From the NCBI GenBank assembly GCA_951812975.1, contig CATOTC010000001.1:1334001-1398000 (forward strand): DNA of 64,000 nucleotides, read 5' to 3'. Shown piece by piece: positions 10,041-57,283 of the stretch. The position numbers were made by a program, and so were the translations under genes. A model generated the notes under the pieces. That model ran no database searches. It saw nothing but the letters and a program-made list of their open reading frames with translations, and was not told the origin of the DNA. Position 1 is the stretch's first letter. Each line of letters begins with the position of its first letter. This stretch comes from an uncultured Acidimicrobiales bacterium. Lineage in GTDB: Bacteria; Actinomycetota; Acidimicrobiia; Acidimicrobiales; Aldehydirespiratoraceae.

Positions 10041-11512
10041 GTTCCACGGGTCTTCAGCAGGTCCTCGAATCCCAGCACGACCGTGTGGTCCGTGTCCGGG
10101 ATCGCGTCACTGCCCGACAGGAACAGCCCGGTGGCCATACCCAACTCCTCGGCCACATCAAGGTTGCCCGGGATGCTGCTCAGATAGAAGCAGTCGAACA
10201 GGTCAACGGACATCGTCCGCCGGGTCGCCTCGAACAGCGCCGGTTCAGGCAGGATCGAGCCGACGTCACCGCTGACCATCCACGACGAGATCGAGTCTTC
10301 AAGCGCTGCCATCCGCCGCAGCCGGTCACCCCACGCACGGGGCTGGTTGCCGATCGCCGCAACCGGCAGCCCGCTGTTCTTCATGCGGTCCAAGAACGGA
10401 TGCAGGCCCTGGTTCAGCCGGAATGATGCCAGGTACCTCGTCTCCATCAGTTCAGACACCGGGCTCAAATCAACCTCGCTCCAGAACTCCGAAGGCGACA
10501 CACGCCCCAACACCAGCAGACGGTGGAGCTCCCGAACACGCTCAGGGTCGATGTCAGGCTGTTCAGCCATGATCAACGGCAGCAGCGCCCCTTCGAGCGG
10601 ATTGGTGGGCCGGACCAGCACACCATGAACATCCACCACCAGGAGCCGCAACATTCGACGACGGGGGCGGCTCGCCTCCTGCGCACGGGTGGCCGCACGA
10701 TGCTGACGGCGCCGTATGTCTCGACGTCGGCGGCCCTTCGGCGTGCGCCACTTGGCCAGCAGGAAGCGAACCAGGTAGGAGAAGAGCAGCAGCACCAACA
10801 GGGCACCGGCGGAGAGGGCGACCATGGTCCAGACCCGCACGAGGATGCTCTCCGCCGACGAGTTCGCCTCGACATCGACAGCGCGGTCGCCGTAGCTCAT
10901 CGTCCAGATGACGGTTTCGTCGACCACCTCGCCGTTGGCCTCGCCGAGCGTCTCGGGCATCCGCACGGTAACCGTCAACCCGAGCGCGTCTTCGAAGCCG
11001 CCCTCGAAATCATCCTCGATCGCATCGGTGGACCGCCCCAACGGGGCAAGCCCACCAGCAAAAGCCCCGCCGAGCTGCTCGAAGTCGAACGTGGGATCGA
11101 CCGAGCCCCGCAGTGCGTAGTCGGTTCTCGCCGGGCCCAGCCCGATCACGTCGAAGTTGTGTCCCTTGACGAGCGTGAACCCCTCGAAGATCACATCCTC
11201 CCCGGCAATCTCAGCCAACACGGCACCGAGCGCGTCTGCTGACGGGAACCGTTTCGAGACGTTCACAGTCAATTCGCCGGCTCTGTCGACGGTGTTGGCG
11301 TTGACCGTCCAGCCCGCGTCGCTGAGATCGCCCAGCTGCAGACCATCGGGGGCGTCGGGGATGAGCGCAACCGCTTCAGCGTCGGCGACCACCTCCACAG
11401 TCACCTCGCCCGAGCCGTCGTCATCAACCCTGATGTCGACGGTGGTATCGACCCGGCATGCGCTTGCGAGCAGCAACAGGGCCACCACCGCGAGCACGCG
11501 CAACCGCATCAT
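10037..11512 (-). CDS. LppM-like lipoprotein domain fused to a HAD-like domain
   Basis: 491-aa membrane-anchored protein. Residues 1-19 are a lipoprotein signal peptide with lipobox LLASAC (Cys19). Residues 20-225 resemble the LppM domain (VDTTVDIRVDDDGSGEVTVEV). A TM helix spans about 229-252 and an Arg-rich linker about 256-287. Residues 288-491 form a HAD-like hydrolase with motif I region VVDVHGVLV (Asp294). The second Asp of the usual DxD motif is His296, so phosphatase activity is doubtful. The first half should be outside and the HAD part in the cytoplasm. The combination is unusual. It lies 93 bp downstream of clpC on the same strand. Confidence 0.75.
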   Translation of the reverse strand: MMRLRVLAVVALLLLASACRVDTTVDIRVDDDGSGEVTVEVVADAEAVALIPDAPDGLQLGDLSDAGWTVNANTVDRAGELTVNVSKRFPSADALGAVLAEIAGEDVIFEGFTLVKGHNFDVIGLGPARTDYALRGSVDPTFDFEQLGGAFAGGLAPLGRSTDAIEDDFEGGFEDALGLTVTVRMPETLGEANGEVVDETVIWTMSYGDRAVDVEANSSAESILVRVWTMVALSAGALLVLLLFSYLVRFLLAKWRTPKGRRRRDIRRRQHRAATRAQEASRPRRRMLRLLVVDVHGVLVRPTNPLEGALLPLIMAEQPDIDPERVRELHRLLVLGRVSPSEFWSEVDLSPVSELMETRYLASFRLNQGLHPFLDRMKNSGLPVAAIGNQPRAWGDRLRRMAALEDSISSWMVSGDVGSILPEPALFEATRRTMSVDLFDCFYLSSIPGNLDVAEELGMATGLFLSGSDAIPDTDHTVVLGFEDLLKTRGT

Positions 11513-11605
11513 CGTATGAACGCTAGACCGCTGAACACGTCACCGGGCCACACGACGGTATCTTCCGCTCCTGTTCGCTTCGCTCACGGGCCGCTCAGGC
11601 CGCGG

Positions 11606-14143
11606 CTAGAAGCTGTCGACCGCTTCTGCGAGTTCAACTTCGGGAGGAGTGAATCCCTCTATGGACCGGAACACGATCATCAGGTCGTCTGCGGCGGAGG
11701 GGTCGGCTTCGACGTCGACGATCACAATCTCGCCCGCCCGGAAATCCTTGTTGAGGAGCTTCTCGGAGAGGGGATCCTCGACCAGGCGCTGCAAAGCACG
11801 GCGCAACGGCCTCGCCCCGAGGGTCGGGTCGTAGCCCTCCGCGGACAGGAAGTCCTTGGCCGCATCGGTCAACTCCAGACCCATACCCTGACCGGCCAGC
11901 TGCTCCGCTGTCCGGGCCACCATGAGATCGACGATCTCCCGCACTTCGGGCCGGCTCAGCTCATGGAAGACGATCACGTCATCGATGCGGTTCAGGAACT
12001 CCGGCCGGAAATGCGCCTTGAGAGCATCGGTGACCTTCTCCTTCATGCGCTCATAGGTGACCGCCTCATCAACCTTCGTGAACCCGAGGTTGGCCTTGCG
12101 CAGGTCTTGAGTGCCCAGGTTGGAGGTCATGATCAGCACGGTGTTGCGGAAGTCGACGGAGCGGCCCTGGCTGTCGGTCAGGCGTCCTTCCTCGAGGATT
12201 TGCAGCAGCGTGTTGAAGACGTCCGGATGGGCCTTCTCCACCTCGTCGAACAGCACCACCGAGAAGGGCTTGCGACGAACCTGCTCGGTGAGCTGACCTC
12301 CCTCGTCATAGCCGATGAAACCGGGAGGCGAACCGATGAGGCGGCTGACAGTGTGCTTGTCCATGTACTCCGACATGTCGAGGCTGACCAGAGCACTCTC
12401 ATCACCGAACAGGAACTCGGCGAGAGTCTTGGCCAACTCGGTCTTGCCGACACCCGACGGACCCAGGAAAATGAACGAACCGCTCGGCCGCTTCGGATCC
12501 TTCAGGCCGGCCCGGGTGCGACGGATCGCCTGAGACACGGCGTGAACCGAGCTCTGCTGGCCGACGACCCGCTTGTGGAGCTCGTCCTCCATGCGCAGCA
12601 GCTTCTGCGTCTCCTCCTCGGTCAGCTTGTAGACGGGGATACCGGTCCACAGCGACAGGACCTCAGCAATCGCTTCCTCGTCGACCTCGTCGAAGAGGTC
12701 GACCCCTGACGCCTTGGCCTCGCCCTCCAGAGAATCACGCCGGGCGAGCAGCTCCTTCTCGCGGTCCCGCAGACGACCCGCCTCCTCGAACTGCTGAGAC
12801 TCCACGGCGTACTTCTTCTTCTGCACGACCTCGGCGATCTCCGCTTCGAGCTCCTTGTGCTCGGGCGGGGTGGCCATGCGCTTGATGCGCAGACGTGAAC
12901 CGGCCTCGTCGATCAGGTCGATGGCCTTGTCGGGCAGGAACCGGTCCGCGATGTACCGGTCCGCCAGATTGGCCGCAGCCACGACAGCTTGATCAGTGAT
13001 GGTCACCCGGTGGTGCGTCTCGTATCGGTCACGCAGCCCCTTGAGGATCTCGATCGTGTGCGGGACGGTCGGCTCGTCAACCACGACCCGCTGAAAACGC
13101 CGTTCCAGAGCGGCGTCCTTCTCGAAGTACTTGCGATACTCGTCGAGGGTCGTTGCGCCGATGGTTTGAAGTTCGCCGCGTGCCAGCATGGGTTTGAGGA
13201 TCGAGGCGGCGTCGATCGCGCCCTCGGCTGCACCCGCTCCGACCAGCGTGTGGATCTCGTCGACGAACAAGATGATGTCGCCGCGGGTTCGGATCTCCTT
13301 GAGCACCTTCTTGAGGCGTTCCTCGAAATCGCCGCGATAACGCGACCCGGCGACCAGAGCGCCCAGGTCGAGCGTGTACAGCTGCTTCTCGAAGAGGGTC
13401 TCGGGGACAGTGTCGTTGGCGATCGCCTGCGCCAGCCCCTCGACGATGGCGGTCTTGCCGACACCGGGCTCGCCCACCAGCACCGGATTGTTCTTGGTGC
13501 GGCGGCTGAGGACCTGCATCACCCGTTCGGTCTCACGGGCACGCCCGATCACCGGGTCAAGGCTCTTGTCCCGCGCCAACTGGGTGAGATTGCGGCCGAA
13601 CTGGTCGAGAACCAGCGAACCGGAAGCGCTGTCGCCCCCCGAGCCGCCGGTGACCGCACCGGCCCGCTCACGGGATGGACCAGACGACTGGTCGCCCGAA
13701 GGACCGCCGTAGCCCGAAAGAAGCTTGATGACCTGTTGGCGCACGCGACTGAGATCGGCCCCGAGCTTCACGAGAACCTGGGCCGCCACACCCTCGCCCT
13801 CCCGGATCAACCCCAACAGAATGTGTTCGGTGCCGATGTAGTTGTGCCCGAGCTGCAGCGCTTCACGAAGGCTGAGTTCGAGAACCTTCTTGGCACGCGG
13901 GGTGAAAGGGATGTGGCCGCTCGGTGAGGAGCCGCCCTGTCCGATGATCTCCTGCACCTGGTTGCGTACCGCCTCGAGGCTGATGCCCAGCGATTCGAGT
14001 GCCTTCGCCGCGACGCCCTCACCCTCATGGATGAGCCCCAAGAGGATGTGTTCGGTACCGATGTAGTTGTGGTTGAGCAGGCGCGCCTCCTCCTGCGCCA
14101 ACACCACCACTCGTCGAGCCCTGTCGGTAAACCGCTCGAACAT
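11606..14143 (-). CDS. clpC: ATP-dependent Clp protease ATPase subunit ClpC
   Basis: 845-aa Hsp100 unfoldase that feeds substrates to ClpP. Two Clp_N repeats (residues about 15-65 and 80-140) are followed by a linker and AAA-1 with Walker [18 protein letters not shown]/coiled-coil middle region ([18 protein letters not shown]) follows, then AAA-2 with [14 protein letters not shown] and the ClpB_D2-small domain. The length fits actinobacterial ClpC1. The SD sequence AGGAGGGG lies upstream of ATG 14143. It is divergent from the polyprenyl synthase. Confidence 0.96.
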
Positions 14144-34349: not shown

Positions 34350-35045
34350 TCATCGGGTCACCGAGGCGGCGAGACGGCGCATCCACGCGAAACCGACGAC
34401 GTTGAGCAGCAGACCCAACACCACGCATATCTGGCCCGTACCGGTAGTGAAGACTGCCGCGCTGCTCGCAGGATCGAGGGTCAGAAGCAGAACCAGGAAC
34501 CCGATCGGCGCCACGAACAGCACCATCGCCGAGGCCCTCGTCTGTGCGGTCAACACCCGGACCTCGTCGACAAGCCCGGCACGTTCACGCAGAGTCAACG
34601 CGGCGCGCTCCATCGAGCCGGCCAGCGCGCCGCCTGTGACCGAGCCGAGGCTCACAACAGCCCGAACCAGATCACCGTCGGGATGATTCAACTCACCGGC
34701 CCAACGGTCGAGCGCCTCCACCAGCCGCTCACCGGAAGCGAAACGAGTCACCAGAGTGTCGAGCCCCAGACCACGCAGCGACGACAACGCCGAGGCCGTC
34801 TGGATCGCTTCGTGCAGGTTGCGTCCACCTCGCAGTTCACGCGCCAACACGTCGAGCATCTCTGGAAGCTGCCCGATCGCCGAAAGCCGCCGACGCTGCT
34901 CAGCACGACTCACAGTCACTCCCCTCGCCGCCGTCACTCCCCTCGCCGCCGTCACTCCCCTCGCCGCCGTCACTCCCCTCGCCGCCGTCACTCCCCTCGC
35001 CGCCGTCGCTCCCCTCGCCGGATCCTCATTGCCCCTCACAGCCAT
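34350..35045 (-). CDS. TadB-like pilus assembly membrane protein
   Basis: 231-aa T2SSF-family protein. The core includes LPEMLDVLARELRGGRNLHEAIQ, SVTGGALAGSMERAALTLRERA and two C-terminal helices. Residues about 9-44 are a tandem hexapeptide AARGVT repeated about five times, encoded by an 18-bp DNA repeat; this part is outside the family domain. ATG 35045 overlaps the cpaF stop (TGATG). The repeat number could vary between strains. Confidence 0.82.
   Translation of the reverse strand: MAVRGNEDPARGATAARGVTAARGVTAARGVTAARGVTAARGVTVSRAEQRRRLSAIGQLPEMLDVLARELRGGRNLHEAIQTASALSSLRGLGLDTLVTRFASGERLVEALDRWAGELNHPDGDLVRAVVSLGSVTGGALAGSMERAALTLRERAGLVDEVRVLTAQTRASAMVLFVAPIGFLVLLLTLDPASSAAVFTTGTGQICVVLGLLLNVVGFAWMRRLAASVTR
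34913..35020. repeat. 18-bp in-frame tandem repeat in tadB
   Basis: About six 18-bp units (consensus on plus strand CCCCTCGCCGCCGTCACT), with exact copies at 34921, 34939, 34957 and 34975 and a one-base variant at 34993. Being a multiple of three, copy-number change would keep the reading frame. Confidence 0.92.
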
Positions 35046-37240: not shown

Positions 37241-37336
37241 GGAGGTGTCCGAGCGCCTGGTGGGCTCCCCCGCCTTCAAAGCGGGTGGGATGGGTGATCC
37301 CCGTCCGGCGGGTTCGATTCCCGTCCACCTCCGCCA
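37241..37336 (+). tRNA. selC: tRNA-Sec(UCA), selenocysteine tRNA
   Basis: A 96-nt tRNA including encoded CCA (37334-37336). The acceptor strand GGAGGTG pairs with CACCTCC. The anticodon stem-loop is CCCGC-CTTCAAA-GCGGG with anticodon TCA. The long variable arm (GGGAT...ATCCC) and T-arm GGGTTCGATTCCC fit bacterial tRNA-Sec. No tRNA with anticodon UCA other than Sec (or a suppressor) is expected. No selA, selB or selD lies in this window. The DNA just downstream is an accessory island. Confidence 0.95.
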
Positions 37337-37504: not shown

Positions 37505-38623
37505 TCAGTCTAAAGTGATTCCATCATACCGGCGTAGAAGAACAGCAAGATCACTTGCAATATCGTTTTTCATTATTCGTAGGCTTTCTCTTGATATAGC
37601 CTTAGGTTCAGTATGCGCTATTTGACCGAATCGGCCCGAAGATGTTCGATATCGAACATGCTCTTTGTCGATAATCCAAGCTCGGTCGACATTCTTTGAA
37701 AGGTGAGCTACAGCCGAAATGTGAGTCATTCTCGACAATGGATCGAAACAATCTAGGTCAAGAATATCAAGCGATATACTGAGACTGTTGGCAATCTTAC
37801 CGGCCAGTTCATCAACGGAGACAAGCGATTGACCTGTGGGTGTTCGTATCTCATCCGAAACAGCATCCTGCGCTATTTGCACTGATCCCCATTCATCAAC
37901 AACCAAAAGATACTGGGACTGTTCAATTAACAGACGATCAGACATCACTCTAAATTCTAAAGGCCCTGCAGAATGAATTTGTCCTTGAGGGGTGCGCGGT
38001 ATGGCTCGCTGAAGAGTTCGGCGGAACTCAGGACTCTCAAGCGTTGAGGGTCGTATGATCTGTTGACGGGGTCCGCCCGCAACAGCAACTCCTAACAGTC
38101 CGCCTGAAGTGCTACTCTGCAAACCGCCCGTTACGATAACGAGATTTTGCGCGCGGTAAAATATTTCAATTTCGTTCACAGGAGTGCTCGCTTCCGACAG
38201 CATGAGATTGTGTAGCGCCTTGATCACCCGGTTCCTCAGATTTTCGACACTCTCAAAGCGATCTCCCAGGCGTCCCTTCGACCATTCGCTGACCTCCTCA
38301 ATGAATCTCTGTTGTGCGACTTCTTTGGCTTCAATTTTCTCGATGAATACAAGGATATGCCTATTTTCCTTGACGGCCTCTCTCCATTCCTCATGAGTGG
38401 CTGACAACCCTGATTCTTGAGGTGTTCCATACCGCTCACCAAGCAGGAACACGACGACATCGCTTTTGCGAACAGCTTCGAGGCATGTCTTTTGTGATGT
38501 CAAAGGCCGCGCACAGAAGTCTTCTGACCGTGTCAACTCAATGTCAAAGAGCTTCGCAGTGGATTCGACCGCGTCTCGGTACTCCGCGTAGCCGTAGATC
38601 ACGGAAGAGATGAAGACTCTCAT
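37505..38623 (-). CDS. DUF4062 domain protein, AT-rich island gene
   Basis: 372-aa protein. Residues 1-100 match the DUF4062 pattern: MRVFISSVIYGYAEYRDAVE, SDVVVFLLGERYGTPQESGLSATHEEWREA, ILVFIEKIE. The rest is unrecognised. DUF4062 has a TIR-like/nucleotide-binding-related architecture and is often found in NTPase or defence proteins; no such effector is evident here. Codon use is strikingly AT-rich against all neighbours, a sign of recent transfer. It is the first island gene after tRNA-Sec. Confidence 0.75.
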   Translation of the reverse strand: MRVFISSVIYGYAEYRDAVESTAKLFDIELTRSEDFCARPLTSQKTCLEAVRKSDVVVFLLGERYGTPQESGLSATHEEWREAVKENRHILVFIEKIEAKEVAQQRFIEEVSEWSKGRLGDRFESVENLRNRVIKALHNLMLSEASTPVNEIEIFYRAQNLVIVTGGLQSSTSGGLLGVAVAGGPRQQIIRPSTLESPEFRRTLQRAIPRTPQGQIHSAGPLEFRVMSDRLLIEQSQYLLVVDEWGSVQIAQDAVSDEIRTPTGQSLVSVDELAGKIANSLSISLDILDLDCFDPLSRMTHISAVAHLSKNVDRAWIIDKEHVRYRTSSGRFGQIAHTEPKAISRESLRIMKNDIASDLAVLLRRYDGITLD

Positions 38624-38774
38624 GATTCTAGCTTAGACAGTCGGTCATCTCGCGCGCAGAATACTAGACATGATGGTCTCGTCTCGTTTCCCACATGGCT
38701 CTTCGTATCAGCCGCACTAGTCAATGATCGACCTACTAGCCGAATCGAGATGGCCTTGCGAGCACGAGGCGGAC

Positions 38775-40223
38775 TCAAGGCTGATCTTCGCGAACGAGGG
38801 TGGGCGATAGGGCTTCGGTTAGGGCTTGGATTTCGGTTAGGGCGGATTGGAGGTCTTCGGCGATCTCGGCGGCGAGGATGGCCGGGGGCGGGAGGTTGTC
38901 AGCGTCTTCGAGGCTCTCGTCTCGGAGCCAGAACAGGTCGAGGCTGACCTTGTCGCGGGTGATCAGTTCGTCGTAGGTGTAGCGCTTGAACCGTTCGGAC
39001 TCTGCACGTTGGTGACGAGCGTCGGCCCGGTAGCAGGCGACGAAATCGTTGAGGTCGGCCCTCGTGAGCGGGTTCTGCTTCAGGGTGAAGTGCTTGTTGG
39101 TGCGCAGGTCGTACACCCACAGCTCACGGGTCCAGGCGTCCTCGGCGCCCTCTCGGCGGCGGAAGAACAGCACGTTGGCCTTCACGCCCTGCGCATAGAA
39201 GATCCCTGTCGGCAGCCGCAGCAGCGTGTGGACCTCGCAGTCGTGCAACAAGCGGCGGCGGATCGTCTCGCCCGCACCCGCCTCGAACAGCACGTTGTCG
39301 GGCACCACCACGGCCGCGTCCCCGCCGATCTTCAGCAAGCTCACCACATGCTGGACGAAGTTGAGTTGCTTGTTCTTCGTCGTTGCCCAGAAGTCCTCCC
39401 GCTCGTAGCTGTCCGACGACGACCGGCCGAACGGCGGATTGGTCAAAACCATGTCGAACGGCCTGCCCGGAGAGTCCCGCAGAGCGTCGTCGACCACGAT
39501 CGGTGAGTCGGATTCGGGGCTCTCGATGCCGTGCAGCAGCATGTTCATGGCGCACAACCGGGCCGGCAGGTCGGCGATCTCCCAACCATTGAACGCACCC
39601 GAGCGCAGGTGAGCGACCTGGTCGGGTTCCAGATGCGGGAACCGCTCGACAATCGACCGGTATGCGCCCAGGAAGAACCCTCCGGTGCCGCAGGCAGGGT
39701 CACAGATGCGGTCGTCGGGCTCGGGCTGCATCACATCGACGATGGCGTTGATGAGCGCCCTGGGCGTGAAGTACTGGCCCGCTCCCCTGGCACCCTCCTG
39801 GGCGGTCTTCTCGATCAGGCCCTCGTAGGCGTCGCCTTTGAGGTCGGCGTCGTAGCTCATCCACTCGTGCTGGTCGATGAACTCCTTGATGAGCTGTTCC
39901 AGCTTGGCGGGCGTCTGGATTCGGTTGCGGGCCTTGTGGAAGACCACGCCGAGCATGTCCTCACCAGCGCCGAGCGCGGCCAGCACATCACTGTAGTGGG
40001 ATTCAAGTTCCGCACCCGACCGGTTGAGCAACGACTGCCAGCCGTGCTCGATGGGCACGATGCGGACGCCTCCGAGCATCTCCTGCTGCTCGTCGGCCAT
40101 CTTGAGGAACAGCAGATAGGTGAGCTGTTCCAGGTAGTCGCCGTAGGACAGGCCGTCGTCGCGCAGCACGTCGCAGAAGTCCCACAACTTCTGCACCATC
40201 GCCTTCGGATCCTGTGCGGTCAC
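38775..40223 (-). CDS. hsdM: type I restriction-modification DNA methyltransferase subunit
   Basis: 482-aa N6-adenine methyltransferase. The N-terminal HsdM_N region (KLWDFCDVLRDDGLSYGDYLEQL) precedes the N6_Mtase core. SAM motif I is CDPACGTGGFF and catalytic motif IV is VLTNPPFG. GTG 40223 was selected over ATG 40250 because HsdM proteins begin TAQDPxAMVxKLW. It should methylate the target with HsdS. It is separated from hsdS by about 4 kb of plus-strand genes. A decayed copy of its C-terminal coding sequence lies at 48953-49022. Confidence 0.92.
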   Translation of the reverse strand: MTAQDPKAMVQKLWDFCDVLRDDGLSYGDYLEQLTYLLFLKMADEQQEMLGGVRIVPIEHGWQSLLNRSGAELESHYSDVLAALGAGEDMLGVVFHKARNRIQTPAKLEQLIKEFIDQHEWMSYDADLKGDAYEGLIEKTAQEGARGAGQYFTPRALINAIVDVMQPEPDDRICDPACGTGGFFLGAYRSIVERFPHLEPDQVAHLRSGAFNGWEIADLPARLCAMNMLLHGIESPESDSPIVVDDALRDSPGRPFDMVLTNPPFGRSSSDSYEREDFWATTKNKQLNFVQHVVSLLKIGGDAAVVVPDNVLFEAGAGETIRRRLLHDCEVHTLLRLPTGIFYAQGVKANVLFFRRREGAEDAWTRELWVYDLRTNKHFTLKQNPLTRADLNDFVACYRADARHQRAESERFKRYTYDELITRDKVSLDLFWLRDESLEDADNLPPPAILAAEIAEDLQSALTEIQALTEALSPTLVREDQP

Positions 40224-40250
40224 CGGCGCGCCCTCACAATGACCGATCAA

Positions 40251-40713
40251 TCACATCGTCAATATCAGATCGAAGTTTCACGGGGTCAGCATAAGGAAGG
40301 TGACACCAACGTTCGAGCAATGTCGAAGCATCCGCTTGAACGGTTGAGAGCGGCAGTTCCGCCGTCGGATGCCCAGACTGTCCAGCCACGGACCGATCAC
40401 CCGATTCCGCACGATGCACGACATCGCCGGATGGTTGCTGTTCTGGCCGACGACCACCTTGTCCCATGACCCCAATGTATGCCACATGACGCATCAGAGG
40501 CGTCTCTAATGGCAGTGGCGGGGTGACGGAGCCCGCGCCGGGCCGGTAGGTTGCAATGCGCGCGAATGCAAACCATTGCGACGTGCGTTATGCCAAAACC
40601 TAAAGCGCAAAACACGCGCAAACGACGTCAAGCACGCCGCGGCCGCGCTCACCGGTAACGTTGCGAAGCTTCGATGAGACCGGGGATCAGCCACTGCTAG
40701 CGTGGTTTGCGCG
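40251..40713. other. gene-free stretch between hsdM and the ImmA cassette
   Basis: About 460 bp without a convincing gene on either strand. Open frames here are antisense or low quality. GC content and composition shift along the stretch (several CGCG-rich pieces near 40520-40660), as expected at a recombination seam. No repeats or tRNA fragments recognised. Confidence 0.5.
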
Positions 40714-40742
40714 GCGACAGCAGCAACGACGCTACCTAGGAT
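40714..40742 (+). promoter_or_regulatory. candidate promoter for the XRE-ImmA cassette
   Basis: GCGACA (40714-40719) and TAGGAT (40737-40742) are 17 bp apart. Transcription would start near 40749, just ahead of the SD and ATG of the short upstream ORF. Confidence 0.35.
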
Positions 40743-40756
40743 GCAGGGGAACGACC

Positions 40757-40828
40757 ATGAACGATCCACGCTCCGTCGTGTCTTGCACCACAACGTCCGC
40801 GGGTCGTAAACCCCGTCTGCCAGCATGA
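40757..40828 (+). CDS. 23-codon upstream ORF coupled to the XRE-ImmA gene
   Basis: ATG 40757 follows an AGGGGA sequence 5 nt upstream, and its TGA overlaps the next ATG as ATGA (40825-40828). The peptide reads MNDPRSVVSCTTTSAGRKPR then LPA. The main gene lacks an SD of its own, so re-initiation from this uORF probably sets its expression. Confidence 0.5.
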   Translation: MNDPRSVVSCTTTSAGRKPRLPA

Positions 40829-42003
40829 ACTCCGAAACCCACACCGAACCCAAGCGGGCAACGAAGCCGCTCCGCGTCAAGGTCGATCCGTCGCTGTATT
40901 CGTGGGCGGCTGAACGTTCGCGGCTCGGCTTGGACGAACTCTCAGACCGTTTCCCGAAACTGAGCGAGTGGATGGCCGGCCACCGTTCGCCCACGCTGAA
41001 GCAGGTTGAGGATTTTGCGCGCGCCACCGGCACGGCGATCGGGTACTTCTTCCTCGCAGAACCACCAGACGAGCATCTACCGATCCCGGATTTTCGAACG
41101 GTAGGTGACCGTCCGGTAGCCCGACCGAGCGGCAACCTGCTTGACACGATCTACCAGTGCCAGCAGCGCCAAGACTGGTATCGCGACTATGTGCGCAGTT
41201 CGGGGATGAGAGAGCTTGAGTGGGTTGCTTCACTGCAACCGAACACCCCTCCAGAGGATGCAGCACAACGAATGCGCAGCGCGCTGTCGTTCAACGTGCA
41301 GCAGAGGGGTGCCGACTACCAGGAAGCGTTCAGGGTATTGAGGCAACGGGCCGAGGAACTTGGCGTGATGGTCATGGTGAGCGGCGTGGTCGGAAGCAAC
41401 ACGCGCAGGAAGCTTGATCCCCAAGAGTTCAGGGGCTTCGCTCTCGCGGACCGGTTCGCGCCGCTGGTGTTCGTGAACGGCTCGGACACACGCGCAGCCC
41501 AGATCTTCACGCTCGCCCATGAATTGGCTCACATCTGGTTGGGTGAGAGCGCGCTGGACAGTGTCGATCTAGGGGCGAGGGCCACCAACGACATCGAACG
41601 CTGGTGCAACCGGGTAGCAGCGGAGATCCTCGTTCCGCTTCAGGAGATTCAGGCAGAGTTCAACCCCCGAGTGGGAATACCGACCGAACTGCAGCGCCTT
41701 GCGCGCCGGTTCAAGACGAGCAGGCTGGTCGTGCTCCGGCGGCTCCACGAGTGCAAGTTCCTAACCTGGGACGAGTACCAGCAGACTTTCCAGACAGAAT
41801 ACGAGCAGGCCCTGGAACGGGTCACCGGCACTGGCGGCGACTTCTACAGGACCCAACCAGCCCGTGTCGGCACGACTTTCGCCCAAGCTGTCATCGCGAG
41901 CACTCTTGAGGGTGACACCTCGTACACCGACGCGTTCCAAATGCTCGGCTTCAAGAAAGCCTCAACGTTTTATGAGTTGGCTGATCGACTCGGTGTGACG
42001 TGA
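40825..42003 (+). CDS. XRE-type HTH plus ImmA/IrrE metallopeptidase
   Basis: 392-aa protein. The N-terminal 75 residues resemble an XRE/Xre-like helix-turn-helix (LDELSDRFPKLSEWMAGHRSPTLKQVEDFARATG). The ImmA/IrrE domain contains the zinc motif HELAH at residues 232-236 (FTLAHELAHIW). Such proteins cleave repressors or act as antitoxins. Here the stop overlaps the downstream DUF4411 gene as GTGA, which is a known TA-like pairing. All metal ligands of HExxH are present. Confidence 0.88.
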   Translation: MNSETHTEPKRATKPLRVKVDPSLYSWAAERSRLGLDELSDRFPKLSEWMAGHRSPTLKQVEDFARATGTAIGYFFLAEPPDEHLPIPDFRTVGDRPVARPSGNLLDTIYQCQQRQDWYRDYVRSSGMRELEWVASLQPNTPPEDAAQRMRSALSFNVQQRGADYQEAFRVLRQRAEELGVMVMVSGVVGSNTRRKLDPQEFRGFALADRFAPLVFVNGSDTRAAQIFTLAHELAHIWLGESALDSVDLGARATNDIERWCNRVAAEILVPLQEIQAEFNPRVGIPTELQRLARRFKTSRLVVLRRLHECKFLTWDEYQQTFQTEYEQALERVTGTGGDFYRTQPARVGTTFAQAVIASTLEGDTSYTDAFQMLGFKKASTFYELADRLGVT

Positions 42004-42491
42004 CGGTCTACCTGCTCGACACGGACACCCTCATCAGAGCCAAGAACGAGCACTACGGCTTCGATCTCTGTCCAGGCTACTGGAATTGGCTCGACAACGA
42101 GCACGCGGCAGGGAAGGTGTTCAGCGTTCGCAAGGTCTACGACGAACTCCTTGCTGGTCAGGACGAACTCAGCGACTGGGCCAAGCAACGGAAGGGCTTC
42201 TTCTTGGAGCCGAACGACGCCACGCGAGCAAGCCTCGAGGAGGTCAGTGCGTGGGCTTACGGCGCGCGATACCAGCCAAATGCTGTGAGTCTGTTCATGC
42301 AGAAAGCCGACTATTTCTTGGTTGCGGAAGGGCACGCATCGCAAAAGACGGTCATCACCTACGAGAGGTCGGCACCAAACTCTCTCAGCTCAATCAAGAT
42401 CCCCGATGCCTGCAATGCAATGGGCGTTGACTGGATAGCTCCACACAGGATGTTACGCGCGGAGGGCGCGCAGTTCGATCTCCGTTCCTGA
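42000..42491 (+). CDS. DUF4411 PIN-like putative toxin
   Basis: 163-aa protein. It begins with a PIN-like strand VYLLDTDTLIRAKNEHYGFDLCPGYW, which matches the DUF4411 signature, and continues KVYDELLAG and KIPDACNAMGVDWI for further acidic residues. It is probably a ribonuclease toxin. It starts at GTG 42000, coupled to the ImmA gene. Together they form a TA-like unit placed between hsdM and hsdS. Confidence 0.8.
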   Translation: MTVYLLDTDTLIRAKNEHYGFDLCPGYWNWLDNEHAAGKVFSVRKVYDELLAGQDELSDWAKQRKGFFLEPNDATRASLEEVSAWAYGARYQPNAVSLFMQKADYFLVAEGHASQKTVITYERSAPNSLSSIKIPDACNAMGVDWIAPHRMLRAEGAQFDLRS

Positions 42492-42633
42492 TTCTGAGGG
42501 ACGGTCTTTTCGAGAATCCGTGTCATCCAGCACGACAGAATCGAAGGGGTAGCGGTCGACGCACCAATACCACCGAGGGCAGCGACTCGTCAACGCGCCT
42601 CATCGATGCCAAGAACTACGCTTCAACCGACTG

Positions 42634-43494
42634 ATGATGGCCCGAGCAAGGGCAGAATTGCAACCGGTGACACCAGAGGACTTCTTCAAGGACGACTTCG
42701 TCTCAGACAGGCATTTGCTCAACCACGAGCTATTGGACCGTGTGCGCGCTGGTACATACAACGAGCGGTCTGATGTCGAGGTCGCCGTCGCGTTGCTGCG
42801 GTTGGCCCATGACGAGCTTGAGGCTTATGGCACGAACGGAGAGCAGCGCACCGATAAGCACGACATTCGGCTCATTTTGAGAACGAGTCTGCAACTGCTG
42901 AACCGCCTAGGCGTAGTCCTCGACCTGCCGTTCAGCGACTATGGCACGTTTCGGTCTCATTGGATGGCCAACGGTGCACACGGCAACTGGCAGGCTCGGC
43001 GCGACATACTGAATGAACTCTTTGAGCCGGTCCACCTTCAACTCGCGGACCTGGAGAACGACGAACTCGGATCGGAGCTGGCAAAGCCTGTCACAAGCCA
43101 TCCGGGCACAGGTTGGTCCCGTGTTGATATCGAGATCAACGAAGTGCGACGCCATTTCGGGTCCGCTCGGAGCCCGCAGGACTACCGCAATGTCGGTAAC
43201 GACTGTGTCGCGGTTCTGGAACGGCTCAGCGAGGTGGTGTTCGATCCTGAGTTCCACCTCAGGGAAGGCGAGCAGGAGCCACCGGTCGCTAATACGAAGG
43301 ATCGGCTCGGCAGGTTCGTGGACAACGCCGCTTCCGGACCAGCGAATGCGGAGATCAGAAAAGTCGCCCGGGCAACCATTGAGCTAGCCCAAGCCATCAA
43401 GCACCAAGGTGAGCCGACGCGGAGGAATGCAGGGATCGCCGCAGACTCGGTGATCCTGCTCGCGAATCTTCTCCGCCGACTTGCTGAGAAATAA
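42634..43494 (+). CDS. unknown island protein (286 aa)
   Basis: A soluble, mostly helical protein. The middle (about 150-210) reads GTGWSRVDIEINEVRRHFGSA and YRNVGNDCVAVLERLSEVVF. The C-terminal half resembles the abortive-infection C-terminal type of helical bundles (VARATIELAQAIKHQGEPTRR), but I cannot name a family. It follows the ImmA/DUF4411 pair at 142 bp on the same strand, with nothing recognised in between. A role in defence is inferred only from location. Confidence 0.7.
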   Translation: MMARARAELQPVTPEDFFKDDFVSDRHLLNHELLDRVRAGTYNERSDVEVAVALLRLAHDELEAYGTNGEQRTDKHDIRLILRTSLQLLNRLGVVLDLPFSDYGTFRSHWMANGAHGNWQARRDILNELFEPVHLQLADLENDELGSELAKPVTSHPGTGWSRVDIEINEVRRHFGSARSPQDYRNVGNDCVAVLERLSEVVFDPEFHLREGEQEPPVANTKDRLGRFVDNAASGPANAEIRKVARATIELAQAIKHQGEPTRRNAGIAADSVILLANLLRRLAEK

Positions 43495-43531
43495 CCCCTG
43501 CTCAAAGTGCTTACATCACGCGGACCGACAA

Positions 43532-44284
43532 CTAGGACTTGTCGTCGCCCAACGACGGAGCCAATCGGCCTGGCAACGCGTCAATCAATTTGCGGATCTC
43601 GCCCAGTTCCTTGTGTTGCGCCTTGGTTGCCTGAGTTATCTCATCGAACGGCGTCGCAGTGACCTCTGACATTGATCTACGCGCACCGGAACCGCCGAAA
43701 CGCATGTCGGATCTCCACCTACGAATGCCCCAAGTGCTCTCGTGGGAGACCTCAAATCTGGTCTGGTCCAGAACTTCGACAGTCTGTTCCGACGCATTTC
43801 CGAAGTTTCACACGTAGCGCTGGTCTGGAGTCATGTCACTAAGATTCTCAATCGGACCGAAAAGAAACTCTCGAGTGTTGCCCTCGTCAGGAGTGATGCC
43901 AGTCTCGTGCCACGCAATCGGCGGGGTGCACTTGACCTGCACCTCCTTCGCGACTCGGTTTCCGGTATTCGTCAGTTCAAGATAGAGGCCGCCACTGAAC
44001 AGCAACCGCAGATTCACTCGTGGACGGCTTCGTTAAGCCCAATACCAGAGCGCCCCTAGTGCAGCGACTCCTTAAACGATCGCCTCGCTCCATTCGGACC
44101 CGACACACCACACCAGCAAGATTGCGAGTGCAGCTCCGACTGCGACAACTAGCCACCACACAACTCGCTTCACTTGCGACCTCCGTTCCATTGATTTCTT
44201 CTCTTCAACATCGCCGCTGGTTGTCTGCCTGAAGAACCTACTCGGCGTTACGAATGCACTGGACCAAATCTGAGGCTGGCTCAT
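43532..44284 (-). pseudogene. membrane protein broken by three in-frame stops
   Basis: One minus-strand frame from ATG 44284 (ATGA overlap with hsdS) to TAG 43534-43532 would encode about 250 aa. It reads MSQPQIWSSAFVTPSRFFRQ, a TM helix VVWWLVVAVGAALAILLVW, then a beta-rich part (GLYLELTNTGNRVAKEVQVK) and a helical tail. It is cut by TAA 44074-44072, TAA 44035-44033 and TGA 43810-43808, yet no frameshift is seen. The first 70 codons alone could still give a small membrane protein. Family unknown. Confidence 0.6.
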
Positions 44285-45510
44285 TGCCCGGGGGCTCTTG
44301 GGGGACAAGCTGACGCGAAGGCTCGCGACAAGATTGAGCGTCGGAGCGCTGCCGCTGTCACTTGACACCGGTCCAAGGAACCGGCGCATGACGCGACCAC
44401 GTATCTCGTCTCGTCGGCGACTCGCACGATCTGACGCTGGATGTCGAGCGGTGGGACCGGAAGCTCGACAGCACCGATCATCGATTGGTTGACCTTGTAG
44501 ATGCCAGCGGTCGTCCGAGCCTGCGATTCAAGTTGGCCCCTTACCTTGCGACTGTGCCAGACCAAGCTCAGGTATCTCGGATTCAGTCGTGACTCGTCGA
44601 CGCGTGCTCGAATCATTGTGTCGGGAAACGCCACAGGGGGCGCATCCTCGGACACAAGGCCGCCGCGTCCAACGAGTCTCAGAGAACCGTTGCCCCGTGC
44701 GATAAGAAAGTCATCAGGGGCTATTGCGAAACGGTTGGGGTCCGTGTCACCAAAGTCACCTTGTTTCGTCTCGGCCGGATCGATGAAACCTTCCTTTATC
44801 GCAGTCAGTCGGAGTACCGGATCGCCACCGCTGGGGGCTGTCCGCACAGAGCGGCCATTCGTCAGGGGTTCCGTCAGGAGTTCGCTCAACGGTTGACTCC
44901 GAGCATCCGCGAGTCGGAGCTGATCATCGACGACACGTTGTAGAAGCCGTGTGGTTCGGATGACAGCCGAAGCCAGTCCCGCATCGACAGCATCGAGGCG
45001 GGAGAAGTGCTCTTCAACGGCGGCGACGATTCGTTCCTGCTCCTGCTCGGAAGTAATGCGGACGCTCATGGCTCGAACATCGCCGTCCCTCACCGCCGGA
45101 TAACTGGTTCCGGTTTGCTGTTCGCTAAGCCGTTCAACAAAGTCATCGCTGAGGAGTTGGTGAAGGATGAACCGTGAGTTCACTCCGCGGTTGGGGCGGA
45201 GCACGCAGAATCCCGTAGATGCAATGGCTCCATCAAGCGAGGGCGACACAATCGCTGTCTTGCGTTGATATGTCCTCACGGTCGACAGGACGACGTCCCC
45301 GGTGCGCACGCGCTGACGAGCACGGGACGGCGCGTCACACCCTCGCAGACGTTTAGTGACCTCGATGCGACCAGATCCCGGGTGAATACCCCCGATGTCG
45401 ATGTAATCGAAGAATGCGTCTGGGGCTTCTCGAGGATCCACCTTCTCCACAGGGGTGCAGCACTCACCCAGCGTTGCGAGATACCAACCGGGGGGTAAGT
45501 CAGATGTCAT
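44281..45510 (-). CDS. hsdS: type I restriction-modification specificity subunit
   Basis: 409-aa DNA-recognition subunit. Two target-recognition domains are each followed by a helical spacer (EQERIVAAVEEHFSRLDAVDAGL and PPLDIQRQIVRVADETRYVVAS). First TRD starts LPPGWYLATLGECC. ATG 45510 was chosen because it overlaps the hsdR stop as ATGA; the frame upstream is not conserved. It directs HsdM and HsdR to a bipartite site. Confidence 0.9.
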   Translation of the reverse strand: MTSDLPPGWYLATLGECCTPVEKVDPREAPDAFFDYIDIGGIHPGSGRIEVTKRLRGCDAPSRARQRVRTGDVVLSTVRTYQRKTAIVSPSLDGAIASTGFCVLRPNRGVNSRFILHQLLSDDFVERLSEQQTGTSYPAVRDGDVRAMSVRITSEQEQERIVAAVEEHFSRLDAVDAGLASAVIRTTRLLQRVVDDQLRLADARSQPLSELLTEPLTNGRSVRTAPSGGDPVLRLTAIKEGFIDPAETKQGDFGDTDPNRFAIAPDDFLIARGNGSLRLVGRGGLVSEDAPPVAFPDTMIRARVDESRLNPRYLSLVWHSRKVRGQLESQARTTAGIYKVNQSMIGAVELPVPPLDIQRQIVRVADETRYVVASCAGSLDRCQVTAAALRRSILSRAFASACPPRAPGQ

Positions 45511-48344
45511 GCGGCTAGAGCCTGAGTGAGTTCGTCTAATAGGGCGTCGAGATCGGCGCCGAAGAGGTTGCGGGCTTTGCCTAGGCCGCCTTGGGTGCTG
45601 AAGGGTGGTCCCATCAATTGTGCAGGCGTGATACCGAGGTTGGTGGCGATGCGGGCTTTGATCAGGTCCAAGTAGGCAACCTGCTCCTCTGAGAACGAGC
45701 GGCCGGCGTTCGATTGCTGCAGCAGCCATGTCTCGAAGCGGTCGTTTACTAGCTCGGGGAAGGCGACCAACTCGTCAGCTTCGCCAAGTGCGTACCTCAC
45801 GAGGCTCACCAAGTCGGTGCTGACTCGGTGAGCCGAACCTCGCACCTTCGAGGCGTCGAGTGTCTCGTAGGCCTGCCACAGTGCCTCCGGGGTCCAACGA
45901 TGCGGAGGACGTGAAATCGCGTTGGCTAACTCCTTGATGTCCTTGTAGCTGAGGCCCCCGCCGTACGGCTGGCTGTAGAGCACCTCCAGCGCGGTGATCT
46001 CGTCCCTGTTGTCCTCGATGAACTGCTGCCACGACTCGACCTGGGACCGGGCACGGTCCGCCGCCTCCCGAGAGAACTCGTCTGAGATCACCCGATCCTG
46101 CGACGCCGTGTCGATCACCTGCTCGTAGCTGCGCCTCACATCGATCAGCTTCTCCCGCAGCGCCGAATTGCCTGCCAGCGGTTGCAACGCCTCACGGATC
46201 ATCGTCTTGCCGGCAGCCTTGACCTGATCAGGTGTGGGATCACCGTCAGCTTCAGCCTTGGCCGCCGCGTACTGTCGGTCGATGTCGAGCGCGTCCACCA
46301 TGCCGCGCACCAACTCCGTCAGCCCGACTCCGGCCACCTCCTCCACCTCTGCTCGATCCCCTGGCGTCATCTTCCGGTGAAGCCGGGTGAGCCGAGACGC
46401 CACCGACGACACCACTTCTGGATCGACCGAGCCGATGCCGATCTGGTTCAACAGCCGGTCGAAGCTCACGCCACGCTTGCGTTCGAGCGGCACAGTGTCG
46501 TGCAGTTCAGCTTCGGTGACACCCACGGCATCCACGATCACGAATCGGTCCTTGACCACGGCATCGGGCGTGACTGCACGCAGTTGATCGTTGTCCATCA
46601 CCCGCACACCACGCCCCTTCATCTGCTCGAAGAAGTTGCGGCTGCGCACCATGCGCATGAACACCACACACTCGATCGGCTTCACATCGGTGCCGGTGGC
46701 GATCATGTCCACCGTCACCGCGATTCGGGTCTGGTAGCTGGTGCGGAACTGCTGCAACAACTCCTCAGGCTTGTTGCCGGCGTCTCCCGAGCGGTAGGTG
46801 ATCTTCACCGCCCCCTCGTTGCCGAGCCCGAACTCCTCCCGGACAATCTGCACGATGTCGTCCGCGTGACTGTCGTCCTTGGCGAAGATCAACGTCTTTG
46901 GCACATGGGCCAGCAGACCGTCGTCACGACGCTCCCGGTCGTCGAAGATCACCGGAAGGGAGTCGCGCAGGGTGCGAACCACGGTGCGGATCTGGTCGGG
47001 GGCCACCACCTTGCGGTCCAGTTCGGCGGCGCTGTAGTCGATGTCCTCATCGACTTTCTCCAGACGGAGCTGACGGGTCTCGCGGTCGCGGAACTCGGTT
47101 ACGAACTCCGCGGGGACCGTGCCGCCGGACTCAGTGATCTCGGTGCGGATGCGGAAGATATCGAAGTCCACGTTCACCCGGTCGGCCACCGCCTGGGCAT
47201 GGCCGTACTCCATCACGATGTTCCGGTCGAAGAAGGCGAACGTCTGGATACCCGGCGTGGCCGTGAGCCCCACCAAGAAAGCGTCGAAGTACTCGAGAAC
47301 CTGGCGCCACACGCCATAGATCGAACGGTGGCACTCATCGATGATGATCAGGTCGTAGGACTCGATCGGCACCGACGGGTTGTAGGCCACATTCACCGGC
47401 ACGGCCGGAGCGGTCTCGAAGCCGCTCTGCTCATCGACCGCTTCGTCGAGTTCGTCATCACCCTTCAGGATCGAATGAAGCCTCTGAATCGTGCAGATGT
47501 GGACCTTCGTTGCCGCCTCGTCCGCCATGTCAAGCCGCGAAGACGTGAGATGGCGGACGTTGTAGAGCTCAGTGAACTTGCGCCTGTCATCGGGGGTGGC
47601 GAACCCCTGGAACTCCCGAAGCGCCTGACGACCAAGATTCGCCCGGTCAACCAGGAAGAGAATCCGCTGGGCTCCCGCGTGTTCCAACAGGCGATAACAG
47701 ACATTGGCGGCAGCGAACGTCTTGCCAGAACCGGTGGCCATCTGGATCAGGGCCCGGGGACGGTTCTCCCGGAACGACCGCTCAAGATTCCCGATGGCTT
47801 CGGCTTGTGCAGGCCACAGGTGCGCTGTGCCTGCACCCGCATCGAGAGCGGGCAGGAGCGGGACACCGGCACGCAGACCAGCGCCACGGCCGTTGACATA
47901 GTCCTCCTGCCAGCGGGCCAGTGTCTCGGGTTGATGGAAGGTGTAGACCCGTCGACTCGCCGGCACAGGGTCCAACCCACTCGTAAACCGAGTCTCAGCA
48001 CCGGTCGACTCGTAGCCGAACGGCAGCGCACCACCAACCTCAAAGGCCGGCAGTTCATCGGGGTAAGCGGTGCGATACTTGCGGGTCTGGAACTCAACCC
48101 CGGTCAATGTGCTCCCAGCCTTCTTGGCCTCGATCACCCCCACCGCCTGGCTGTCCACGAACAGCACATAGTCGGCCGGACCCGACTCGGTAGGAACTTC
48201 ACGAACGGCAACACCCTGAGCCGCGGCCACCGCAGCGCTCCGGTAGTCCTGCACAACCCACCCACAAGCCGCGAGTTGCTCATCAATCTTCTCCCGAGCC
48301 TGACCCTCAGGCGTGGAATAGTCAGATGAACCAGTCTCAGACAC
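45507..48344 (-). CDS. hsdR: type I restriction endonuclease motor subunit
   Basis: 945-aa HsdR. The N-terminal nuclease region has ADYVLFVDSQAVGVIEAKKAG (the ExK part of a PD-ExK core). Walker A is QMATGSGKTFAAANVC and the DEAD-like box IIDECHRSIYG; helicase motif VI-like MKGRGVRVMD follows. The C-terminal part is helical (EcoEI_R_C type). GTG 48344 gives an N-terminus MSETGSSDYSTPEGQAREKI; the upstream frame is low quality. Intact, so restriction may be active. Confidence 0.92.
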   Translation of the reverse strand: MSETGSSDYSTPEGQAREKIDEQLAACGWVVQDYRSAAVAAAQGVAVREVPTESGPADYVLFVDSQAVGVIEAKKAGSTLTGVEFQTRKYRTAYPDELPAFEVGGALPFGYESTGAETRFTSGLDPVPASRRVYTFHQPETLARWQEDYVNGRGAGLRAGVPLLPALDAGAGTAHLWPAQAEAIGNLERSFRENRPRALIQMATGSGKTFAAANVCYRLLEHAGAQRILFLVDRANLGRQALREFQGFATPDDRRKFTELYNVRHLTSSRLDMADEAATKVHICTIQRLHSILKGDDELDEAVDEQSGFETAPAVPVNVAYNPSVPIESYDLIIIDECHRSIYGVWRQVLEYFDAFLVGLTATPGIQTFAFFDRNIVMEYGHAQAVADRVNVDFDIFRIRTEITESGGTVPAEFVTEFRDRETRQLRLEKVDEDIDYSAAELDRKVVAPDQIRTVVRTLRDSLPVIFDDRERRDDGLLAHVPKTLIFAKDDSHADDIVQIVREEFGLGNEGAVKITYRSGDAGNKPEELLQQFRTSYQTRIAVTVDMIATGTDVKPIECVVFMRMVRSRNFFEQMKGRGVRVMDNDQLRAVTPDAVVKDRFVIVDAVGVTEAELHDTVPLERKRGVSFDRLLNQIGIGSVDPEVVSSVASRLTRLHRKMTPGDRAEVEEVAGVGLTELVRGMVDALDIDRQYAAAKAEADGDPTPDQVKAAGKTMIREALQPLAGNSALREKLIDVRRSYEQVIDTASQDRVISDEFSREAADRARSQVESWQQFIEDNRDEITALEVLYSQPYGGGLSYKDIKELANAISRPPHRWTPEALWQAYETLDASKVRGSAHRVSTDLVSLVRYALGEADELVAFPELVNDRFETWLLQQSNAGRSFSEEQVAYLDLIKARIATNLGITPAQLMGPPFSTQGGLGKARNLFGADLDALLDELTQALAA

Positions 48345-48472
48345 CCCGGTGATCCTACGTGCCCAAGTAACTCCCGGCCATCTCTCCGGTCTCGGCTGGG
48401 TGTGACAGGGCCCCTGGTCCACGTGGCAGCGCTACCTGGATGATGTCGCGATGCTGATATGTTCTGCTGACC

Positions 48473-53629: not shown

Positions 53630-53709
53630 AGCACAAATGTAGTCTGACTATGGCACACTGATCCTGGACCGACCGTCCGGCCGGGTGGATCGGCTACCGC
53701 GGAGAAAAC

Positions 53710-54864
53710 GTGATCATCATCGCAAACGGCAAGACGAAGGGGTTCCTCCAGCGCACCGACGACACGGAGGCCCTGTGGGTGCGGCTCGGCGAACTCCCCG
53801 ACGCCACCGGCTGGCAGATGAAGCCGCAGGGCGCGTGCCTCGGCGAGCTGTGCGTACCGCTCCCGGAGAGCAAGCGTGAGGACTGGATCGCGGACGCCGA
53901 CGACTGGGTGTGGCTCAACTACTCGGAGTTCGCCGACATGATCGGCCAGAAATACGTGCGCGACGGCAACGTGTGGAGCCTCGGCACCATACCCGCAGTC
54001 CGGCAGACCGGGCTGGAGTGCGGCGTCGCGCCCGACTTCGAGGTGACCGACCGAAACGGCGACCCGTTCAAGCTCTCGGAGTTGCGCGGCCACAAGGTGG
54101 TGCTGTTCACCTGGTCATCCTGGTGAGGCTGCCGTGTCAGCCTGCCGGTCTGGCAGGAACTCTACGAATCGATCGGGCCGGACCGGTTCAAACTGGTCAG
54201 CGTCGCCCAGGACTCAGGGGGCCCCGCCGCGGTGGACAAATGGCTCAACCGGGCCTCGCCGACCTACCGGTGCATCATCGACCCGACCCACGAGATCAGC
54301 TCGCTGTTCGGATGGGTCAACGTGCCGGCGGCTGCCTGGATCGACGAGGACGGCCAGATCGTTCGCAGCAACGAGGGCGTGCACCCCGCAGAGACGATCA
54401 TCAGGTTCGGCCTGGGCAAGATCCGAATGGGCGACAACTCGTTCGCCGATGCGACCCGCGACTGGATCGAGCGGGGCGCCGACAGCGAGCACGTCTGGTC
54501 GAGCAGTGAACTCGCCGAGCGGCTAAAACCCGTCGACGATGACAAGCTGCTCGCCGAGGCGACCTTCAAGCTGGCGCTGCACTTCGAGGCCACCGACGAC
54601 AGCGAACGGGCACTGAAGCACTTCACAGCAGCCCAGGAGCTGGCACCCGACAACTGGAACTACCAGCGCCAGGGCTGGAACCACAAGGGTACGGCCTATG
54701 CCGCATTCAAGGTGCTGAAGCGTACGAGCAACCTGCGAAAGAACACCGACAAGAGCTTCTACGACCCCACCGGGCTGCCCGGCGAGAACCATCGCCGGTT
54801 CACCGAACCCGAAATGCTGTGGACACCAGCCGTGAATCGGGTCAAGCAACTGCTCCGCCGCTAG
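53710..54864 (+). CDS. redoxin-fold selenoprotein, Sec139 at in-frame TGA (ResA-like UGC motif)
   Basis: Read through the TGA at 54124-54126, this is one 384-aa protein; read conventionally it would be two broken ORFs ending and beginning in the middle of a redoxin domain. Residues 1-100 are a unique N-terminal part with Cys43 and Cys48. Residues 105-260 form a TlpA/ResA-like thioredoxin fold: VAPDFEVTDRNGDPFKLSEL, VVLFTWSSW, then Sec139-Gly-Cys141-Arg, and VNVPAAAWIDEDGQIV. The U-G-C spacing is one residue shorter than the usual CxxC. The rest (about 285-384) is helical with a TPR-like ALKHFTAAQELAPDNWNYQR. No signal peptide. GTG 53710 has GGAG 5 nt upstream. A DAO oxidoreductase follows at 100 bp. 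Confidence 0.88.
54141..54157 (+). promoter_or_regulatory. bacterial SECIS hairpin
   Basis: CCTGCC-GGTCT-GGCAGG forms a perfect 6-bp stem with a 5-nt GGTCT loop. The loop starts 20 nt after the TGA, close to the 18 nt in E. coli fdhF, whose SECIS has the same GGUCU loop. The hairpin is also coding (SLPVWQEL). It should recruit SelB to insert Sec at codon 139. Confidence 0.9.

Positions 54865-56350: not shown

Positions 56351-57283
<933 letters not shown>

Follow-up and report, generated by a model that had tools for sequence, protein, structure and literature searches.

The gene at positions 37241-37336 (plus strand) of the window, by which we mean the whole 64,000-nucleotide stretch analysed here, is almost certainly selC, the tRNA-Sec gene of an Acidimicrobiia genome with a complete selenocysteine (Sec) system. 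A complete and conserved Sec-decoding system, of a kind that is already well known, is documented here for the Acidimicrobiia. While Sec use in Actinobacteria generally has long been known (PMC1794560, PMC5029168), a full-text literature search found no account of it in Acidimicrobiia, a weak negative given that subscription papers mostly fall outside the coverage of such a search. Three papers that name the group do mention selenocysteine, one to three times each. In practical terms, reading UGA as Sec is justified in the annotation of Acidimicrobiia genomes, where selD, fdhA and several thiol oxidoreductases otherwise look truncated.

Identity and fold of the tRNA-Sec gene

Identification of the gene is based on ARAGORN, the Rfam model RF01852, the predicted fold and conservation. 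Run on the window, ARAGORN called tRNA-SeC with anticodon tca at 37241-37336 (+), so that the first-pass annotation, made from the letters alone, had placed the gene exactly to the base. RF01852 matched 37241-37332 over the complete model (1-91) with 65.5 bits against a gathering threshold of 47 (E 4.3e-11). The features on which the earlier identification had relied are all present: a long variable arm, the anticodon TCA (37276-37278) within the loop CTTCAAA, a CCA encoded at 37334-37336, and an acceptor stem, supported by fold and conservation, in which GGAGGTG (37241-37247) pairs with CACCTCC (37326-37332). The variable arm comprises 7 bp (37288-37294/37300-37306), and the D stem comprises 6 bp with a 4-nt loop and one bulge at index 15, which the Rfam alignment shows as an insertion. 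The discriminator G (G73) lies at 37333 and is a G in all 105 order-level copies.

For the transcript the folding energy is -51.7 kcal/mol, compared with -41.9 kcal/mol for shuffled sequences (z -2.6). All pairs of this fold are present in 47 of 47 distinct order-level copies, with two-sided, compensating changes found mostly in the variable arm and the D stem. Since pairing is kept in every distinct copy despite such changes, the fold is not due to chance.

In its UCA anticodon within CUUCAAA, long variable arm, G73 and encoded CCA, the gene resembles bacterial tRNA-Sec of the E. coli 8/5 type (RF01852), as it does in the 6-bp D stem, the 4-nt loop and the 13-nt 3' strand of the acceptor/T helix. 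It differs from the E. coli type in the single bulged base that interrupts its D stem and in U8, which is unpaired with C66, a 7+6 arrangement via G48-C66 being possible instead. A simple scan around the gene found neither a sigma-70-like promoter nor an intrinsic terminator, consensus elements that Actinomycetota possibly do not follow; these absent matches, together with the absent eighth acceptor pair, count against a functional selC.

A long variable arm is also common to tRNA-Ser, and such genes match RF01852 weakly, the second-best match listed for the same genome reaching 43.2 bits and thus remaining below the gathering threshold. The gene might be a tRNA-Ser, or else a suppressor tRNA for UGA (selC-star tRNA-Cys or allo-tRNA kind), that merely resembles tRNA-Sec. 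This reading is opposed by the TCA anticodon, the discriminator G and the 3' strand of the acceptor/T helix, which is 13 nt long here as against 12 in allo-tRNAs (PMC7609411). A call of tRNA-Ser or non-tRNA by a covariance model had been named beforehand as an outcome that would speak against selC; the model named tRNA-Sec, at 65.5 bits. In addition, the gene co-occurs strongly with selA, which was present in 45 of the 46 genomes with tRNA-Sec. On the covariance score and this co-occurrence, both the tRNA-Ser and the suppressor-tRNA readings were rejected, and we regard their probability as negligible.

Sec machinery and UGA-containing genes

Absence of Sec machinery from the genome, the other outcome named as adverse, was likewise not what we observed. 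In the genome to which the window belongs (3.02 Mb in 6 contigs, 93% complete), the suggested search for selA, selB, selD and other selenoproteins recovered all three genes above their curated cut-offs, plus a formate dehydrogenase. The selA gene (C1:1,408,767-1,409,885) scored 406 bits against a cut-off of 267.9, and selB, starting from C1:1,409,909, scored 278 bits against 242, with 299 bits for the full ORF. The two are adjacent, about 11 kb beyond the right end of the window, and their ORFs meet end to start (10638-11903 and 11903-13648 within locus L041). On contig 3, selD (C3:215187-216113) scored 356 bits against a cut-off of 125 and is itself a UGA gene, its active-site position (SHGAGUGCKL) being an in-frame TGA.

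At least five genes of this genome carry an in-frame UGA at redox sites, a minimum because only family-based searches of the genome were made. Besides selD, these are FdhA, the formate dehydrogenase alpha subunit (C5:100548-102446, motif NRTUHAPSV), and three proteins of the AhpC/TSA type: a ResA-like protein within the window, a second ResA-like protein (C1:875681-876502, motif ASWUGC, recorded at C1:875,957) and a WAPWUPAC thioredoxin-like protein (C1:150693-151025).

The ResA-like gene of the window (53662..54864, plus strand, 5' end putative; PF00578, PF08534) is the selenoprotein gene that the first-pass annotation had reported about 17 kb away. It contains one in-frame TGA (54124-54126), 16.8 kb from tRNA-Sec, within the motif WSSWUGCR, and the UGA is kept in relatives. 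Its product matches NF041054 (ResA-like WAxxUGC, WAxxUGC_long) over 305 residues with Sec at the motif (266.6 bits, E 3.6e-79), but differs from that family in its WSSWUGC motif and in scoring under the equivalog cut-off of 300. Conserved linkage between tRNA-Sec and this selenoprotein gene was considered and rejected, as the selenoprotein was found in none of the 14 tRNA-Sec neighbourhoods of relatives.

The UGA is followed by a SECIS-like hairpin, CCTGCC-GGTCT-GGCAGG (54141..54157, plus strand), which starts 17 nt past the first base of the codon. Its stem is kept in UGA homologues despite varying codons nearby and is broken in Cys homologues, and its loop is GGTCT in the window gene and near homologues and CGGGT or CGTGT in remoter ones. 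Of the window positions, 0.016% show a GGTCT pentaloop on a stem of at least five pairs at such spacing. The UGA of FdhA in the same genome is also followed by a hairpin with a GGTCT loop. The E. coli fdhF hairpin has the same GGUCU loop.

Because relatives share ancestry, the following counts represent non-independent events: among 61 relatives, with 58 bits as the lower limit for scoring tRNA-Sec as present, 45 had both tRNA-Sec and selA, 11 had neither, one had the tRNA only and four had selA only (Fisher p 4e-8), while ResA-like homologues carried TGA in 33 genomes, all 33 with selA, and a Cys codon (TGT/TGC) in three genomes, none with selA. Three of the four selA-only relatives are drafts in at least 380 contigs. 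The single relative with a strong tRNA-Sec in which selA was not found (G054, locus L012) may have lost the trait, or selA may be missing from its assembly.

We read UGA as Sec in this genome because tRNA-Sec and selA agree in their occurrence, the UGA/Cys split follows selA and a hairpin lies after the UGA. That the genes are present, that UGA and Cys codons are split in this way and that a hairpin follows can all be read directly from the sequence. The first-pass annotation had considered the tRNA itself to show that UGA is decoded as Sec; decoding is backed by the machinery, the UGA/Cys split and the hairpin, whereas a tRNA gene alone is insufficient for this conclusion. By analogy with the established bacterial pathway, we posit that SerRS would charge the selC tRNA with serine and that SelA would convert Ser-tRNA to Sec-tRNA using selenophosphate from SelD. 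SelB would then carry Sec-tRNA to UGA codons that have a SECIS hairpin after them, and Sec would thereby enter a few redox proteins: at least three thiol oxidoreductases of the AhpC/TSA type, as well as SelD and formate dehydrogenase alpha.

Pairing between the acceptor stem and the T arm

Bacterial tRNA-Sec is described as 8/5, with SelB recognising it mainly through its 8-bp acceptor stem (PMC5330540, PMC7609411). In the window gene the eighth acceptor pair is absent, position 8 being a T (37248) that is not complementary to the C at position 66 (37325), and U8/C66 was found in all 105 parsed copies (30 order-level copies and 75 from genome_contigs). The T arm (37307..37325, plus strand; GGCGGG/CCCGTC) reaches 6 bp if G48 (37307) pairs with C66. 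This pair, which the minimum-energy fold picks, would give 7+6 = 13 stacked base pairs of acceptor and T stem.

A mismatch at this position departs from the 8-bp acceptor stem and might be taken as a sign that Sec decoding is being lost from the lineage and that its tRNA-Sec gene is decaying, a possibility to which the relative with tRNA-Sec and no detectable selA (G054) also lends itself. Opposed to this are the sharing of the mismatch by all order-level copies with otherwise perfect pairing, its occurrence in copies from other classes, and the persistence of five UGA genes in the genome. We therefore consider decay very improbable and retain the reading of an apparently functional selC.

How the junction is paired can be viewed in two ways, which we regard as equal: a tolerated U8/C66 mismatch within the 8/5 frame, or a 7+6 architecture via G48-C66. 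Among 106 distinct tRNA-Sec sequences of the phylum, a sample weighted heavily to the window's own order, 82 could form only the 48-66 pair, 13 only the 8-66 pair, one both and ten neither. G48 was invariant in the sampled tRNA-Sec, including those with G or A at position 66, and covariation is therefore unable to prove G48-C66.

The acceptor stem of 7 bp is shared with the 7/5 tRNA-Sec known from the Cloacimonetes type, Rubrobacter and others, which has a 12-bp acceptor/T helix (PMC5330540). Unlike these, the window tRNA keeps eight bases between the 5-bp T stem and G73, and its stack can therefore be 13 rather than 12 bp. It is conceivable, but in our view rather doubtful, that most sampled Actinomycetota tRNA-Sec are 7+6 and not 8+5, the G48-C66 pair adding to the T stem; their SelB and SelA would then have to gauge the 13-bp stack, or some other feature, instead of the 8-bp acceptor stem reported for E. 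coli. In the literature searched we found no description of 7+6 pairing in tRNA-Sec, our own tRNA comparison covering the Actinomycetota. The unpaired eighth acceptor position offers a natural test of what SelB measures.

Distribution and genomic neighbourhood

In a sample of 396 genomes from the phylum Actinomycetota, 206 had a tRNA-Sec match reaching E 1e-9. Within the order, selA was present in 36 of 37 genomes of the window's family and in 13 of 24 from the other families. The earlier description of Sec use as patchy in Actinomycetota thus holds for the phylum and the order, but not for the family of the window. The conserved tRNA-Sec stretch matches at least 118 stretches of genome_contigs, and nearly all of the 80 matches listed are metagenome-assembled genomes (MAGs) labelled Acidimicrobiia, Acidimicrobiales, Acidimicrobiaceae, Microthrix or plain Actinomycetota. 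An Acidimicrobiia-type tRNA-Sec also lies on a contig of a Gammaproteobacteria MAG (L060, VXNP01000078.1), which is probably a misnamed or mixed bin. Two tRNA-Sec matches were seen in some Actinomycetota genomes (G151, G162, G194 and several of family f48).

To the left of tRNA-Sec are tad-type secretion genes (T2SSE, T2SSF), which are kept in most relatives. On the other side, a sigma-70 factor (56351-57283) follows 19 kb from the tRNA. In relatives (L192, L195-L198, L200-L204), a sigma-70 factor 86-99% identical lies past tRNA-Sec at distances from less than 100 bases to about 8 kb. A DUF4062 gene and an IrrE-domain/DUF4411 pair share the 19-kb interval of the window with the selenoprotein gene and with a complete type I restriction-modification set. 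The set consists of HsdM (38775-40250), HsdS (44281-45729) and HsdR (45507-48422), all on the minus strand, and together with the DUF4062 and IrrE-domain/DUF4411 genes it forms an island (37505-48422) directly right of tRNA-Sec, where G+C immediately drops to 0.48. A relative of the same genus (G003, L192) is without the restriction-modification set at this site.

The interval between tRNA-Sec and the sigma-70 factor thus looks like a variable cargo site. In E. coli, the site next to selC is well known to be variable in this way. An integrated element marked by an att-type repeat of the tRNA 3' end was rejected, as a search allowing up to three mismatches found the tRNA itself only, and no gene scanned to its right was recognised as an integrase. 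With neither att repeat nor integrase, the term inserted island is a synteny argument only. In one relative (G004, L193) an AbiEii-type gene lies in the interval past tRNA-Sec, and in another (G013, L197) the tRNA-Sec gene lies in reversed orientation with respect to the genes on either side. Close to the tad-type genes of the window, an 18-base minisatellite, GTCACTCCCCTCGCCGCC, is repeated in about six copies (34897-35038).
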